From: Bryobacterales bacterium
Lineage (GTDB): Bacteria > Acidobacteriota > Terriglobia > Bryobacterales > Bryobacteraceae
Direction of reading: 5' to 3'
Assembly (NCBI GenBank): GCA_030693045.1
Contig: JAUYBU010000468.1
Location: 1-35,640, forward strand
DNA: 35,640 nucleotides
Position 1 is the stretch's first letter. Every line of letters starts with the position of its first letter. This document shows positions 638 through 10,558 of this stretch, one piece after another. A model generated the notes under the pieces. That model had not been told where the DNA came from, ran no database searches, and saw nothing but the letters and a program-made list of their open reading frames with translations. Position numbers and translations under genes: made by a program.

Positions 638-3070
638 TTGAGTGTTTTGCTGCAGGATCTGCGATATGCGCTGCGACTGCTGGCGCGCGCTCCGGGCTTT
701 ACCGCGGTGGCGGTGCTGACGCTGGCGCTCGGCATCGGCGTCAACAGCGCGGTGTTCAGCCTGGTCGACGCGGTTCTGCTGCGTCCGCTTTCCTACCCGC
801 AACCGGAGCGGCTGGTGTGGCTGTGGGAGAGCAACCCGGCTCAGAAACTGCTGGTGATGCCCGCCGCGCCAGCCAATTTCGCCGACTGGAGGGAACAGAG
901 CCGGTCATTTGACCGGGTGGCCGCGTGGCGCGACCTCAACCTCACGCTCACCGGTCTCGATATTCCGGAGCGCGTACCGGGCGCGCGAGTGTTCCCCGAG
1001 CTACTCGATGTCCTGGGGGCCAAACCGGCGCTGGGCCGCGGCTTCGCGCGCGGCGAGGGAACGACGGCCGGAGAGCGGGTGGCCATGGTCACCCACGGGT
1101 TGTGGCAGCGGCGGTTCGGGGGCGACCCGTCGCTGGCCGGGCGCACGATTCAGTTGGACGGCATAAACTACACCATCGTCGGCATCCTCGCGCCCGAATT
1201 TCAGTTTCCGTTCAGCCGGGTGGAGGTTCTGATCCCCTGGGCTCCATCGCCGGGCGAGATGCTCGAGCGGGGAGCGAAGTTCCGGTATCTGCGCACGCTG
1301 GCGCGCCTGAGAGCCGGAGTTTCGGTGGAGCAGGCTCGCACCGAGATGATGGGGATCGCGCGCCGGCTGGAACAGGCCTACCCGGCCAGCAACCAGGGCT
1401 GGTCGGTCAATGTCATGCCGTTTCGCGAGTTCTTCATCGCCCAGTTCCGCCTCGGTCTGGTCGCGCTGATGGCGGCGGCGGGGTTTGTGGTTCTCATCGC
1501 CTGCGTGAACGTCGCCAACCTGCTGCTGGCGCGCGCCGCCGGGCGCCGGCGCGAGATCGCGGTCCGCACGGCACTCGGCGCCGGCCGCGGGCGGCTGCTG
1601 CGGCAGCTCCTTACGGAAAGCACCCTGCTGGGACTGATCGGCGGAGTGGCGGGCCTCGCATTGGCGTGGGCTGGAATCAAGCCGCTGATGGCGTTGATCC
1701 CCGAGTTGGACCTGCCGATTCCCGGTCTGGACAGCGTGCGGATCGACCTGCGGGCGGTCTGGTTCACGCTCGGTCTCTCGGTTGTGACCAGTGTGCTGTT
1801 CGGCGTCGCGCCGCTGGCGCAGGCCTCCTCGTCCGGACTTCACGAGGGGCTCAAAGAGGGTGGCCGCGGCGGCGGCGGCGGCGCGCGCAACCGGAGAATT
1901 CGCGCGTTGCTGGTGGTTTGCGAAATCGCGCTGGCGGTGGTCCTGTCGATCGGCGCGGGACTGATGATGCGGAGCTTCGCGCGGATGCAGCGGGTCGACC
2001 CGGGCTTCCGGCCCGAGAACACGCTGACGTTCCGCGTTTCGTTGCCTGCATCCCGGTACGCGCAACCGGCCCGGCAGCGCGCCTTTTTCCATCAACTGGC
2101 CCAGCGGCTGGGAGCGCTGCCGTCGGCTACCGATGTGGGTTTGACGAATCATGTCCCGCTCAGCGGTTCCTGGAGCGTGGTCCGGTTCACCATCGACGGA
2201 CGTCCGGTCTCGCCGGAAGAGACGCCCTCGGCCAGCAATGGAGTAGTGACGCCATCCTACTTCCGCGCGATGGGAATCAAGGTGGTCGCGGGCCGCGCCT
2301 TCACGGAACAGGACGACGGGAACGCCCCGCGCGCGGCGATGGTGAACCAGTCGCTGGCGCGGCGGTACTGGCCGGGAACGGAGGCGCTCGGACAGCGGAT
2401 TCACCTGGAGGGAGAGAGTCCGGACGCTCCGCCGCTGGTGGTGGTCGGCGTGGTGCGCGACATCCATCAACGCGAGTTGTACCAGGAGCCCATGCCGGAA
2501 CTGTACCGCTGTTATCCTCAGGCGCCTACCGCGTCCATGTCGGTCATCCTTCGCGCGGCCTCCGACCCGCTGGCGCTGGCCGCCGCGGCGCGGCGCGAGG
2601 TGGCGGCGCTGGATCCCAACCAGCCGGTCTACAACGTCGAGACTCTGAGCCGGATACTGGAGAGTTCGCTGTGGCAGACGCGGCTGACCGCGGCGCTGTT
2701 CGGAGCGTTTTCCGCGCTCGCCCTGGCGCTGGCCGCGGTCGGCATCTATGGTCTGACGGCGTACACGGTGGCGCAGCGGCAGCGCGAAATCGGCCTCCGC
2801 CTGGCGCTGGGCGCGACCCCCGGCGACGTGCTGCGGCTGGTGCTGGGCAGGGGGCTGGCGCTGGCGCTGGCAGGCGTGCTGGGCGGGACCGTGGCGGCGT
2901 ATCTTCTCACCAAAGGGATGGCGGGGCTTCTGTATGAGATCGGCGTCCTCGATCCGGCGACCTTCCTGACGGCGCCGCTGTTGCTTCTGGCGGTGGCCGC
3001 GGCGGCGAACCTGGCGCCCGCATTGCGCGCGGCCCGCACCGATCCGATGACCGCGCTGCGGCATGAATAG
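638..3070 (+). CDS. ADOP-type MacB/FtsX-like permease
   Basis: An 810-residue inner-membrane protein built from two tandem units of MacB-like periplasmic core domain plus FtsX-type transmembrane domain. The N-terminus ([19 protein letters not shown], then a membrane helix and [16 protein letters not shown]) is the signature of acidobacterial duplicated orphan permeases. The first FtsX block lies around residues 270-400 ([19 protein letters not shown]), the second at the C-terminus ([20 protein letters not shown]). No ATPase gene is adjacent, as is usual for this family, so the transported substrate is unknown. The TTG at 638 is the only nearby in-frame start after a stop at 620-622. The stop overlaps a possible first start of the next gene, so the two are probably co-transcribed. 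Confidence 0.9.
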
Positions 3071-3077
3071 GAATTGC

Positions 3078-4445
<1,368 letters not shown>

Positions 4446-5012
4446 CGGCCCGTCCTTCCGCCGAAGGAGACAGGCCAGGAGGCCCATAGGCGCTAAAGTA
4501 AGCCCGGCTGGCGGATGAAACAGAATCTGAGATTCCTGGCGACGGCCTGAGCCGGAGCGCGCATCGAGATCCCCCTTCTCCGACGAATCGGACCCTCACC
4601 TTCTCTCGTTGTGTCGAGCTTTCCGCTTGCACGAGAAGGGCGTGATACAAGCCGGTTGCCGTTCCGGTAAACATCCGCCGCGCTTGGGCACGGGGGCCAC
4701 TCTTGTGCAGCCTTGACGGCCGGGTTTCGTTCCAGGGGCGCAGCAGTTCTTCATTATCTTGTAGGAATCTGACAATCGTCTCACTTCTGAATCCGGAAAC
4801 GATCTTGTCGATGGTGCATTCGGTTGCGAGAACGCCGCAGAGGTGTGGTTGCGGTCACCATATCGGATCTGCGGACCAGTAACAGACTCCGCTGCCGCTG
4901 TATCCCTTCCCCCGATGCGGCAGGTCGTAGGGGATGGTGAAGTCCTGCTGGGCTGCCGATGTCCTGTTGTGGGCACGGTAGTGAGGGCGACAACCGGTTA
5001 GGCCAGCAGGGA
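4446..5012. other. Gene-free stretch between regulator and two-gene island
   Basis: About 570 bases with no convincing gene. The first 40 bases hold a short hairpin (CCTTC-cgcc-GAAGG) after the regulator stop, without a T tract. The open frames on the - strand (4596-4976, 4781-4993) have low-complexity, Arg/Pro/Ser-rich translations typical of shadow frames. This is probably the boundary of the island that follows; no direct repeats or integrase were seen. Confidence 0.5.
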
Positions 5013-7640
5013 TTATTCTAGGCCATTTGAGAATCCGTCGGAGAGTTCATTCAGAAACTCGGCTAAGGTCCTTCGTGGACCATCGCCAAACCTGGCGGTT
5101 GGAGGTAGGACCGTCTGGTCAAGAAGGCCAGCTATCGGAGTGGTTAGGCTACTCTTGAACCAGCTCTCGTTCTTATTGCCGTACACCCGGAGCACTCGTA
5201 CGTTCATATCCGATGTCCGTTCGGCAGCAGCGATAACAACACAGAAGCCCGCCTTTCCTTGCCACAGCAAATCGCCGGCTCTCAATCTAGTCTGAGAAAT
5301 CCGTTTTGAGATCTCCACCAGACTCTGACCGCTCACCGCCTCTTCCAACCTACGCAGCGCGTGCCCGCGACGAATCTGTCGAAGCCACAATTCATTGAAG
5401 GCATCCAATTCGTCGGCCGTAAACGATCCAGCCTGCGTCAGCAGTTCGGTGAAAGCAAGGCTCAGTTGCTGATGGTCAAGCCCATCCCAAAGCCAGGGTA
5501 ATTGCGCGATCGCAAGTGCTGACCCTAATGCGAATCTCGCATGCTCCGGGCTCCGCCCCCGCGGGGAAACGGCCAACGCCCAACCGGCCAGGGCAGCCAC
5601 CAACTCCGGTGAGCGAAAGGCTGCCGCAAAGTCCGCCTGTGATCGTGCGCTCTCGTGTCGGCGCTGGATCCATCCAGACCCCTCGTCCGAACTATAAAAC
5701 AGGCTCGACCAGATTCGGTGCGTGCTCGTAAAGAACGTCTGTTCATCCAGCCACCCATTGCGGAGCGCGACTCGAAAGAGAATCGACGTGAGCCTGAGGT
5801 CAGCACCGAGCCACTCAGGAGGGCGGTCTGCCAGGAATGAAGACGCAGTCATTGCTTTACACAGCTGTTCAACAATACGGACGGCACGACGGGCCTCTCG
5901 CTTGGTCGGAGCTATCGGGGCATCAGAAGCCGTGTTCTGGCCCGGAAGGTGTTCTGGACGGTCGACCGGCTCCTCGGCATCGCTTTCATTTCCATCACCT
6001 TCCTCCGAACCCCCGGGCTCTTGCGGTGCCACCTCGAACCATCGCAAAAGGAGTTGTTGCAGCAAGTGAACGCGATCCTGCACCGTGTACGGGAAACTTC
6101 GCGCAACCGCACTAAAACGCGGGGGCGAATAGTCCACGGCAAAAACGTCGTCCGCGGTGTATTCCTTAACTACATGCGTCTGTTCGGAACCGCCGTGAGT
6201 GTCCACCGATGCCCGTCGCGGAAGATACGTCAGATGTGAACAGAGGGCTTCGAGCACTTCGGCCCACGCGCCGAAACCCCATGCCTCTGCGCGCACATTC
6301 TTGCGGATCGCGTCGCCCAGACTGCGGCACCTCGCCGTCGATCGTAGCTGCCATTCTTGATCAACCCATCTGGGCGCGGTTCGGGCACGCGCGTTGCCGT
6401 CTTTGCCTTCTAACGTCACCTCGCGGGGAGCCTCGCCAAGTCGAGCGCGAATGCAGCCAAGTCCCAGATGCTCGAACTCCGTGGACAAGCCATCGACCTC
6501 ACACGCGGTAATCTTCCAGCAAGGAGGGGCGTAGGCAACCCGCAGGCAGCCGTTTTCGTAGCTGGCCGCCAACACGCGCAGGGGCGGCACCAGTGGCAAA
6601 GTCATCTCCGGCGCCTCGATAGGGAGTACGGGGACGACGTCAAGCAGATGGAGTTCCGCTTGGAAGCGATCCCGGAATTCGTCGGAGTCCATGCGTTGCA
6701 CTGCCAGCAACTCAGCGTTTCCCTGCTCTCCCGGTATCAATAGTGCGGCACGAGAGCAGTTGGCGCTACCGACAAATACAGTCACATGATCGCCCTGTTT
6801 GAAGGCATAGAACTTCGCATGGATGAACACTTCGCGGGTTCTTTGGTCATCCTCCCGCTGAAACGTGACTGACCTGAGGTGCGCCGCCCCAGCGTTCCGG
6901 CTCCACGCTGCCTCTTTCAGGCCTGTTCGGCCAGGTTGCACCAAAAGGCTGACCTCCGCGCTTGCGGCGTGGCCGATAATGGCAGCGAGCGCTGCTCCGT
7001 CATCGTCGAAATAGGGTGAGCAAACAGTGACTCTGTCAACCGCAGCGGTATCGAGTTGTTCAAACATTTGGCCGAGGAGCGAGGGCCCGGACGATGGCCT
7101 TCCCAACAGTTGGCCGGGCTGACCAAGGCCCGCTGCCCAGGTACGTGTTGCAGGATCAAACGCTTCCTCTATGTCCGTTTGGACCTGCTCTGAAAGGGCG
7201 ACACGCCTAAGGATCAACCTGAGGTATTCTTGAAACGCCGCAAACGGTGCGGGGCCGTCCTCTCCTATTTCGAATCGAAGCCAGTGCTCCGCGTTCTCTC
7301 GCCACCCGCCAAACGTGAGATTTCCGCTGCCAACGCACAGCGTAGCCTCAGAAGGTCCAGAGAGTAGGACGGCTTTGGGGTGGAAGCGAAAGCCGGGCTC
7401 CATCTCAATGGAAACGACCCGAAACCGAACTCCCAGCCCCTGTATTACCGGCGCTTGGGCGGCGTATGACGCAGCCGCGCAGCCAGCATCGGCAAAGACC
7501 GTCAAAGCCGGCTGGCCGCATCGGCGCAATGCCGAGAGGACGACCGTCTGTAGAAAAACGAAGTCAATGTTGTGAGTTAGCACAACTGCATTTGTGACGT
7601 CCTTTTTCTCGTAGATCTCTCGGAGCAGGTCTGCCCTCAT
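5013..7640 (-). CDS. Large PLD-superfamily (HKD) nuclease-like protein
   Basis: An 875-residue protein with two phospholipase-D-type half-sites in its first third. The first is HPK at residues 87-89 with GSGN at 104-107; the second is HAK at 274-276 with GSAN at 291-294, preceded by the family's SPYFDD stretch near 208. The spacing H-x-K then G-S-x-N is that of HKD nucleases, in which two half-sites form one active centre cutting phosphodiester bonds. The remaining roughly 550 residues are not recognised; they include an acidic linker ([16 protein letters not shown]). No membrane segments or signal peptide are visible. The ATG overlaps the stop of the upstream gene by four bases (ATGA), so the two are translationally coupled. 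Codon third positions look less GC-rich than in neighbouring genes, suggesting transfer. A role in restricting foreign DNA is inference. Confidence 0.8.
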
Positions 7641-9187
7641 ATTCTCAATTCACTTGCAAGGAGACCCTGCCCGAGTTTAGTTAGTCTGTAGCGCCCGTCC
7701 GACTGCCATTCCAAGTGGCCGAGGTCAGCCCACATTCTAAGCAAGTTTCCGAGCCTGTCCCCGCTGTAGCCGGCGCGAACCAGCGTACCTGTAGGTCGCA
7801 GAAGGTCTCCTTCCGTGTAGAACCTTAACGAGCACTTCTGTCCCTGGCCCATCTTTCGCAGAGTCGCTGACAGGTGCGGCTCAATCACCGCCTGCTTGAG
7901 GAGGATTGTTAGCGTTTCACCGACCGTCCGACTGCTATCACTCTTCAGGATGCCGAACGTCCGTTCAAGGTAATCCTGGTCCCCGCGCGGCGAGGGCCGT
8001 TGGTCATGTCTAAGACCGGTCGTGCGCTTCGCACACGAAATCAGTAGAGCCAAAGCATAAAGCGCGCGGTTATCGGGGGCTAGATCGCGGGGAGTTCCGG
8101 TGTCTGTCGGTCGGCAAGTGATCGGATCATCATTGAGGATCGCTTCAACTTCGAGAAGAGACGTGGCCATGACCGGGCCATTATGCGGAAGAATGGTGTA
8201 GAGAAATGGCGGCAGCGGTTGGTTCGTATTCCACTCTGCTACGACACGCTCGACAGAACCCGCGGTGAGATCGATCAGCGTATCGGTTAGCGCAGACAAC
8301 AGCAGCTCAAGTCCAAAGTGGACCAAGCGTCGGAGTTCGTATTCCGCCCAGGCGCGGACCGTGGCGTCCGAACCGGCCTGGCTTCCGTTGATGACGGCCT
8401 TATAGGCCGACCGGATCAACTCCCCAGCGGATTGTGGAGCGCCTTGGATTTCACCGAATGCCAAGAGCGTCGTTTTCATAAAGCGCTGACAAGTTCCGAG
8501 GCTCTCAGCAGAATGAGGATTGCGGAACGCCCCCTCCAAGAGGTCTCGCTCGGCTGGACAAGCGACAAGCCCGTTGGCCGAGAAAAGCCTGCCTTCTGCG
8601 TTCAGAGTCGCGGAATCCAGGGTCCCGCCATTGAACACCAGCATTTCGAGCTGTGAGCCTCCGACGAGGTCCTCCCGGGCCTCCCACATCGCTTGGCCGC
8701 GAGCCGTCACACGAACAGGCGGACTTTCTCCGAATCTCGTTTCCAGCAGTCCGAATGAACGGCACGGCATGACGTAGGTGCCGTACAAAGCGCCTCCCCG
8801 ATCACTCGGAACCTCAACACGGCCGTCGTGATTAAGGCGTGTGAGTGTATCTGAGTGGAGATTCGCGCCGAGCACCCCGAAGGTGTTCCCGGACTCGCCG
8901 AATGCCTTCCCCGCGGCAGTCGAGGCCAAAACTACAAATTCAAGACGGGCAAGCGTTTGGCGAAGCTTCTCTGGATCAGATATGGCGTGCCCGCCGCCGG
9001 CGTCGAGTTCTCTTGTGTAGAACTCTTTGAAGATCCACGGCAGTAGGGACAAGTAGCGAGCGCGGAATGAGATCGTTGTGATCCCCGCAACCCAGTCGCG
9101 CTCGATTGCTTGGTCGACCTGGCGCACCCCGAGAATGTCGATTCCTTTGATCTTTTCGCGCTCGCCCGAGTTCCAGAAAGATTCCAT
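7637..9187 (-). CDS. Uncharacterised protein, possibly DUF6361-like, first gene of PLD operon
   Basis: About 516 residues from ATG 9187, or 540 from GTG 9259; neither has a clear ribosome site. I prefer 9187 because the protein then begins MESFW, near the start expected for the resembling family. The stretch [21 protein letters not shown] (about residues 39-59) resembles the N-terminal 'RARYF-PW' signature that I associate with DUF6361-type proteins. This is a from-memory motif match, not a search result. The C-terminal about 100 residues look like a small winged-helix domain ([29 protein letters not shown]). No catalytic motif is seen. Translation couples to the PLD gene through a 4-bp overlap. 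It may be a target-recognition or control partner of the nuclease; that is inference. Confidence 0.65.
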
Positions 9188-9493
9188 TACAGTTGACGAA
9201 CGGATACCTATCCGCGGGTCAGAAGCGTTCGCCTGTCTCGCCCGGCAGCCTGTGAGCACGTGCGAGAGTGCCGCGCTCGCTGAACCCTACTGATAACAAG
9301 TATCGCCCTAAAGGATTACGGATGGAAGTTCACATGGACGCGTAGTCGCCAAGCCGAACAGGTGGACGGCGGCCTACATTTCCCGCGGGATGGCCTTCTG
9401 GGACCGTATCAACGACGAGATCCGGGCGCATCTTGCTCCGGCTAGAGCGCCTGGGAAGCCTTATCTTAACGCCTGTGGGCCGGGAGGCCTGTC

Positions 9494-10558
9494 CTACGTT
9501 AGCAGGGTGACGCAGTCTTCCAGGCGGCTCTGGGCGCCGCCGTCGTTCACGCAGAATCTCCCTTTCCACAGCGAGACCCCGGCGTAGGCGCCGTCCTTGC
9601 GCAGCGCGTAGAACTTGATGTCGAACTTGCGCAGGCGCTCCCGATCGTTGTCGAAGTTGCGGGCGATGCGCTTGAGCACGTCCAGGCCGGCGTCGGTGGG
9701 CGACATGCCGTGGCGCATGTTCTCGACGATGGAATGCGCCCCGGCGACGCGGATGTTTTCTTCGCCTCGCCCGGTGGAGCCGGCGGCGCCGACGTCCTGG
9801 TCCACGTACAGTCCCGCGCCGATGATGGGCGAGTCTCCGACACGTCCCGGAATCTTCCAGGCCAGACCGCTGGTGGTGGTCACGCCGGACATTTCGCCCT
9901 TCGGGTTCAAGGCCAGGCAGTTGATGGTGCCGGTGGGCGGGCGAACGGCCATTTGCCAGGCCCATGCCAGGGTCTCGTCGTCGGCGTCGGGGAACAGGCG
10001 GCGCAGGCCGGAGGTCTTCTTGGGGACCGGCGCGTCCAGGCCGTCGGTCCAGTTGTTGTTGCCGGAGGCGTCGCGCAGGGACCGTTTCCAGACCAGCCAC
10101 GCCAGGCGCGACTTCACGGTCAGCAGGTCCTCCTCCTTGAAGCCGCAGGCGCGGGCGAATCGCAGGGCGCCATCGCCCACCAGCATGATGTGATCGGTCT
10201 GTTCCATCACCAGCTTGGCGACCTTGGACGGCGTCTTGATATTCCGGATGGAGGCCACCGAGCCGGCGCGGCGCGTGGGTCCGTGCATGACGCTGGCATC
10301 CAGTTCGACCACCCCCTCCTCGTTCGGCAAACCGCCGTAGCCGACCGAGGTGTCGTTGGGGTCTTCTTCCACCATGTTGACGCCGGCGACCACGGCGTCC
10401 AGCGTGTCGTGGCCGGCATTCAGCATCTGCATGGCGCGGGCGCAGGCGATCAGGCCGTTGGCGCTTGAGATCACGATGTTCTTGGGAGCGGCGTTTTGCG
10501 CGGCGCGGGCGGCGGCGACGGCCCCCGTGGTGAGCATCCAATTCCTTCGGGTGATCAT
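9494..10558 (-). CDS. N4-(beta-N-acetylglucosaminyl)-L-asparaginase-like Ntn hydrolase, Tat-exported
   Basis: A 354-residue Ntn-hydrolase of the glycosylasparaginase / isoaspartyl peptidase family. These are made as a precursor that cleaves itself before a Thr which becomes the nucleophile. The likely nucleophile is Thr211 in TGTINCLAL, followed by GEMSGVTTTSGLAWK and GRVGDSPIIGAG, which are hallmark substrate-pocket segments. The residue before the Thr is Gly rather than the Asp of characterised glycosylasparaginases. The N-terminus TRRNWMLTTGAVAAARAA is a twin-arginine signal peptide, so the enzyme acts outside the cytoplasm, perhaps on glycopeptides. The start (ATG 10558) is set by this signal; upstream extension of the open frame is antisense to the next gene. 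It is divergent from the 10577 gene by only 18 bases. Confidence 0.88.
   Translation of the reverse strand: MITRRNWMLTTGAVAAARAAQNAAPKNIVISSANGLIACARAMQMLNAGHDTLDAVVAGVNMVEEDPNDTSVGYGGLPNEEGVVELDASVMHGPTRRAGSVASIRNIKTPSKVAKLVMEQTDHIMLVGDGALRFARACGFKEEDLLTVKSRLAWLVWKRSLRDASGNNNWTDGLDAPVPKKTSGLRRLFPDADDETLAWAWQMAVRPPTGTINCLALNPKGEMSGVTTTSGLAWKIPGRVGDSPIIGAGLYVDQDVGAAGSTGRGEENIRVAGAHSIVENMRHGMSPTDAGLDVLKRIARNFDNDRERLRKFDIKFYALRKDGAYAGVSLWKGRFCVNDGGAQSRLEDCVTLLT

Follow-up and report, generated by a model that had tools for sequence, protein, structure and literature searches.

Azaca is an established three-gene defence operon in which ZacA and ZacB are encoded ahead of ZacC, the helicase of the system (PMC12278908). 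In the literature that we searched, Azaca is named only in lists. PLD nucleases are found in other defence systems as well, including DrmC of DISARM, and their fold is shared with tyrosyl-DNA phosphodiesterase 1 (Tdp1); they act without metal, via a phosphohistidine. Among mobile elements, the IS231 subgroup of the IS4 family has the end signature CAT-7-AA-2-TAA and direct repeats of 10–12 bp (PMC2266710 Table 1), and MIC231 cassettes are cited in the same paper.

Here, we analyzed a window of 35,640 nt, which is the whole stretch of contig JAUYBU010000468.1 from a Bryobacterales bacterium that was examined, and focused on two coupled genes, A and B. From sequence comparisons, we read the pair as a helicase-less, Azaca-like module, and we characterized its proteins, its recurrence across bacteria and the element that carries it.

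The A–B gene pair and its proteins

Both open reading frames lie on the minus strand exactly where an earlier note on this DNA had placed them, and the translational coupling that it described, with A first, is borne out: the TGA of A lies within the ATGA of the overlap (ATATGAGG). The start of A is the ATG at 9187, where its homologues align. The pair also stands alone, as had been claimed, with a MacB/FtsX permease and an NtrC regulator on one side and an asparaginase on the other, and no defence genes adjoin it in the window. Its codons were said to be less GC-biased than those of its surroundings, and the comparison agrees: GC3 is 0.64 in A and 0.62 in B, whereas the two flanking genes to one side have 0.84 and 0.91 and the asparaginase gene on the opposite side has 0.90. 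The features are collected in Table 1.

Table 1. Coordinates of genes, motifs and mobile-element features in the window, followed by sister elements in the same genome
Feature	Position	Strand	Remarks
NtrC-type response regulator	3063..4445	+	left neighbour of insertion site
Left flanking direct repeat	4473..4484	+	GGCCAGGAGGCC; presumed target duplication, 11/12 identical to right copy
Transposon-like element with A–B cargo	4485..9477	.	4,993 bp; mobile-insertion-cassette type; empty site in G001, paired ends elsewhere
Left terminal inverted repeat	4485..4504	+	CATAGGCGCTAAAGTAAGCC; IS231-subgroup signature 8/8
Conserved left-end region	4485..4662	+	five further genome copies, 84–90% identity
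Gene B	5013..7640	-	875 aa, ATG start; ZacB-like two-lobed PLD phosphodiesterase, Tdp1-like predicted fold plus C-terminal ~500 aa
Second HxK...N half-site of B	6759..6821	-	H274-K276...N294
First HxK...N half-site of B	7320..7382	-	H87-K89...N107
ATGA overlap	7637..7640	-	A stop / B start
Gene A	7637..9187	-	516 aa; ZacA-like helical protein, translated first
Conserved C-terminal block of A	7724..7876	-	H438...TLRK..GQ.CSLRF...D488
RARY-containing motif of A	9035..9064	-	residues 42–51, 10 letters; common in part to ZacA
Conserved right-end region	9331..9477	+	four further genome copies, 78–85% identity
Right terminal inverted repeat	9458..9477	-	CACAGGCGTTAAGATAAGGC, read on reverse strand; signature 7/8
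Right flanking direct repeat	9478..9489	+	GGCCGGGAGGCC
Asparaginase (Asparaginase_2)	9494..10528	-	right neighbour of insertion site
Sister element (L128)	G000:C243 12536-13740
Sister element (L130)	G000:C269 6809-8669
Sister element (L131)	G000:C5 9215-12692
Sister element (L133)	G000:C167 3768-5203		right end near contig end

Protein B matches PLDc_2 in Pfam over two stretches (1.5e-12) and, among the PADLOC models, ZacB (3e-17) and PDC-M27B (3.8e-10). Two half-sites had been recognized in it previously and both are present, but their type is HKN, as in Tdp1, and not HKD as proposed; none of their six residues (H87, K89, N107, H274, K276 and N294) varies among 15 homologues. The predicted model of B (mean pLDDT 82.9) holds the two HxK half-sites within a two-lobed fold, as is characteristic of PLD superfamily nucleases, and its best matches in the PDB are Tdp1 structures (E 2e-8, probability 1.0, 12–16% identity over ~380 columns), at modest TM-scores of ~0.25 by query and 0.5 by target. 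The other ~500 residues received no family assignment. Because B has the residues required for phosphohistidine chemistry, we propose that metal-free cutting of the PLD type would fit this protein.

Protein A from the window matched no Pfam family. Its match to the PADLOC ZacA model is weak (E 0.002 for the window protein, with matches in 11 of 15 homologues and 1.9e-4 as the best), and a profile–profile comparison with a ZacA alignment of two genuine ZacA proteins gave E 1.3e-6 across residues 15–151, as against 0.028 or worse for the control pairs (A with ZacB, ZacC or B). The homology to ZacA spans only the first ~150 residues, the N-terminal third of A. A motif recalling DUF6361 had been pointed out in this part of the protein; the motif itself is present, but the tie to DUF6361 (PF19888) is distant and ZacA is the better match. 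The window protein did not match that family at its gathering score, and among the 15 A homologues a single one gave a hit to it, at E=0.036.

The predicted model of A (pLDDT 84.5) is mostly helical and has a wHTH-like end, in which residues 422–515 form the succession helix, strand, strand, helix, strand, strand, helix. The model is compatible with the winged-helix-like C-terminus that had been suggested for A, but no HTH family was confirmed there. A fold search with the A model against the PDB and viral structures returned nothing below E 0.1; with no significant structural match, the role of A is a guess. Sequence searches of the PDB with A, with B and with both alignments found nothing significant. 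No relative of A was found in viral contigs and plasmids, and plasmids searched with B yielded only six remote PLD proteins.

Relation to Azaca and other described systems

The pair resembles Azaca in its gene order, in the clear similarity of B to ZacB (3e-17) and the distant one of A to ZacA (1.3e-6 by profile–profile comparison), in the RARY motif, in the PLD half-sites and in the defence context of its homologues. A ZacB match was found in all 15 aligned B homologues. Unlike Azaca, the pair in the window lacks the ZacC helicase, its proteins are longer (516 versus ~400 aa for A and 875 versus ~600 aa for B) and the similarity is only remote.

As positive controls, we took four genuine A–B–C Azaca loci (L098, L099, L100 and L101) from as many genomes of this phylum, and the ZacC profile detected all of them at E=0. 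ZacC is absent from the window and from flanks of up to 10 kb around the homologous pairs, the one exception being a remote SNF2 helicase that lies close to the L024 pair (1.6e-4). Since ZacC is missing while every Azaca control was detected, the pair is akin to Azaca yet fails one of its defining features, and canonical Azaca is ruled out. Proteins with SNF2-type matches to ZacC do occur elsewhere in most of the genomes that carry the pair. Four further, more diverged A–B-like pairs also lack ZacC (L036, L037, L038 and L040); as a group, they are related over the length of A (476 columns, E 2e-19), a relation for which L036 alone gives no support. In two of the Azaca loci, L100 and L101, gene A is broken or partly unread.

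Comparison with other systems gave partial likenesses. B matches PDC-M27B, a component of a PADLOC candidate system, as do 14 of 15 homologues, but A does not match PDC-M27A; PDC-M27A itself had no match in the 11 genomes searched, where no positive control matched either. B shares the PLD fold with HxK half-sites with DrmC and other defence PLD nucleases, but its similarity to DrmC is weak (8.5e-4 in PADLOC and below the NCBIfam cut-off) and no other DISARM genes accompany it. With neither partners nor a helicase core, and with a permease, an NtrC regulator and an asparaginase as neighbours, DISARM is ruled out. The predicted B model has the two-lobed fold and HKN half-sites of Tdp1, but the identity is 12–16%, and B differs in its ~500 extra residues and in its constant partner gene.

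Recurrence and genomic neighbourhoods

We found that A is followed directly by B in 15 of 15 aligned genomes from eight phyla, and every intact copy is arranged in this way. Full-length A occurs in three other genomes of the same phylum, each time with B (396 genomes searched), and among named genomes of bacteria and archaea, loci came to light in Myxococcota, Pseudomonadota (gamma and alpha), Chloroflexota, Bacillota, Eiseniibacteriota, Gemmatimonadota, Campylobacterota and Acidobacteriota, where single phylum labels may be wrong because many of the genomes are metagenome-assembled. The possibility that the genes never recur as a pair, raised in the earlier note, can therefore be set aside.

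The 15 intact helicase-less pairs fall into two deep clades. The trees of A and of B recover the same main groups, which conflict with taxonomy and cut across phyla. Because the two trees agree with each other but not with the species, both genes must travel together between lineages.

The note had also allowed for housekeeping enzymes that close relatives conserve. Neither the same-genus genome nor any of 23 further genomes of the family (24 in total) yielded a close relative of A, and the same-genus genome has an empty site; a housekeeping operon is ruled out by this absence. In a genome of the same family (G012), a remote A-like fragment lies at a contig edge.

Broken remnants were found in a Kordiimonadales genome (L032) and in an Acidobacteriota genome (G090). 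On the Kordiimonadales chromosome (L032 8526-11158), A appears interrupted, its N-terminal piece lying ~1 kb from the rest, and no B was found. G090 holds A fragments without B (L041 66-650 and L042 10890-11105), and its flanking genes look like those of the intact pair L030 in a congeneric genome, an apparent loss of the module.

The homologous pairs are often near known defence genes, as the suggested survey of neighbourhoods revealed. Counting matches at 1e-15, 159 PADLOC models were matched by 87 neighbour proteins, a figure that exceeds the number of defence proteins because several models can match one protein; in the control, 81 proteins encoded far from the pairs in five of those genomes gave one PADLOC match. 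A type I restriction enzyme is near the pair in L025 and a type III restriction enzyme near that in L031. Mokosh MkoA is near the pair in both Sorangium loci (L019 and L026), the latter also having a DrmC-like protein, and the neighbours in L024 include an HKD+Snf2/DrmD-like helicase and a mad6-like protein. Lamassu LmuB adjoins the distant pair L038, and E1-E2/JAB is a neighbour in L020. There, directly upstream of the pair, two unassigned genes come after an E1-E2/JAB fusion (L020 2104-6183), a stretch that is possibly a ubiquitin-like defence operon.

The carrier element

In the same-genus genome G001, the NtrC and asparaginase genes are adjacent, their stop codons separated by fewer than 25 bases, where the window has 5 kb. 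The insert is bounded by terminal inverted repeats and by a presumed target duplication, and a direct-repeat match of 11/12 has a probability of 7e-5 for random positions. The arms of the inverted repeats are short and imperfect; a search for repeats within the insert did not pick them up, and they were recognized by comparing sister copies. The cassette ends resemble CATAGGCGYTAA. There is no transposase inside the element, which is why we assign it to the mobile-insertion-cassette kind. An Rfam search over the insert found nothing, and an integron cassette or intron is ruled out by the ends, the direct repeats and the Rfam result.

The element is like those of the IS231 subgroup and MIC231 in its CAT...AA..TAA ends, its direct repeats of 10–12 bp and its passenger genes, and its size falls within their range of 1450–5400 bp (PMC2266710). 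It is unlike them in that it has no transposase, its host belongs to the Acidobacteriota and not to Bacillus, and its cargo is a putative defence pair.

Three sister elements in the same genome (C243, C269 and C5), of 1.2, 1.9 and 3.5 kb, share both end regions of the window element, oriented alike. Their cargoes are a two-gene unit for small unassigned proteins, a radical-SAM protein together with a DUF6375 protein, and a PadR regulator together with an FtsX-type permease; that of C167 is a DUF4238 protein. The direct repeats of the sister elements match at 10/11, 8/11 and 9/12 positions, each in its best register of 11 or 12, and in two of these elements the right end agrees poorly with the signature (3–4/8). 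This genome thus holds a family of transposase-less cassettes with shared ends and differing cargo. The mobility that had been attributed to the A–B pair is supported by the empty site, the inverted repeats with their IS231 signature, the 12-bp direct repeat, the foreign GC3 of the pair and the sister elements with other cargo.

At the insertion point, window positions 4460-4484 and 9478-9493 form a short G+C-rich palindrome of the GGACAGGCC...GGCCTGTCC type, which has many copies in the genome. The flanks suggest that the insertion target may have been a REP-like palindrome.

DISCUSSION

We consider it reasonably probable that A–B is an anti-invader module of two proteins that moves horizontally on an IS231-type cassette and is related to Azaca but has no helicase (ZacA–ZacB without ZacC). 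The earlier reading of a mobile defence or DNA-processing module is supported, and its defence part would follow from the homology to ZacA and ZacB and from the neighbourhoods of the homologues. In the proposed mechanism, the two HKN half-sites of B would form one active site, in a Tdp1-like build, and B would most likely cut DNA in a metal-independent reaction with a phosphohistidine as its intermediate. A, which is made first and is helical with a wHTH-like end, would most likely bind DNA and restrain or direct B; that it is made first and in step with B, with which it shares its evolutionary history, is our reason for proposing a DNA-binding controller. Jointly, A and B might attack invading DNA or damage the DNA of infected cells. 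Because there is no helicase, recognition would not be expected to depend on ATP-driven translocation, unlike in Azaca. The 5-kb mobile insertion cassette would carry the pair and need a transposase in trans. We infer the nuclease activity of B, the sensor or regulator role of A, the antiphage effect and the mobilization in trans.

Several other mechanisms could account for a coupled gene pair of this kind. A could silence a nuclease toxin B, as in a toxin–antitoxin pair, so that addiction maintains the module on its mobile cassette and phage defence is incidental. The translation of A ahead of a coupled B, the location of the pair as cargo of a small mobile element and the presence, on one sister cassette, of another two-gene unit of small proteins would all suit such an arrangement. 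However, A and B are both large (516 and 875 aa) and are conserved jointly, their relatives sit in an established three-gene defence operon and their homologues lie in defence neighbourhoods; we regard this explanation as unlikely, yet the least unlikely of the three considered here. Alternatively, B could process or repair DNA ends by stripping covalent protein–DNA adducts like Tdp1, with A recruiting it to damage and the defence neighbours being incidental. Tdp1 structures do match the B model best and both half-sites are HKN, but PLD nucleases in general have the same fold, and a patchy, horizontally spread distribution with defence neighbourhoods ill suits housekeeping repair, which makes a repair enzyme improbable.

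The kinship to Azaca could also be explained by an incomplete operon, in which ZacC has been lost and the system is decaying, or in which a helicase encoded elsewhere is used. A and B are relatives of ZacA and ZacB, and their genes follow one another as in Azaca; SNF2-type matches to ZacC are found elsewhere in most of these genomes. Yet the 15 helicase-less pairs are intact, form two deep clades, keep their catalytic residues invariant and bear only remote similarity to ZacA and ZacB, which argues for a long-standing separate lineage and not a recent loss; an incomplete Azaca has, in our judgement, as little chance of being correct as a repair enzyme. Returning to the helicase-less anti-invader module, we put forward more tentatively that A–B may constitute a distinct, helicase-independent two-component antiphage system, with ATP-free recognition by A and a PLD nuclease B, that is a sister lineage of Azaca moving on IS231-type cassettes. 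In the literature searched, we came across no IS231-type mobile insertion cassette described as carrying defence genes.

A compact module of a nuclease and its partner, spread over eight phyla, would be missed by a ZacABC definition, and defence surveys would therefore probably omit such pairs. The pair would have to act without the Azaca helicase, and it thereby offers a simple route to probing the functions of ZacA and ZacB. Within one genome, several cassettes lack a transposase and share their ends while differing in gene cargo, and small defence modules could plausibly jump in this way.
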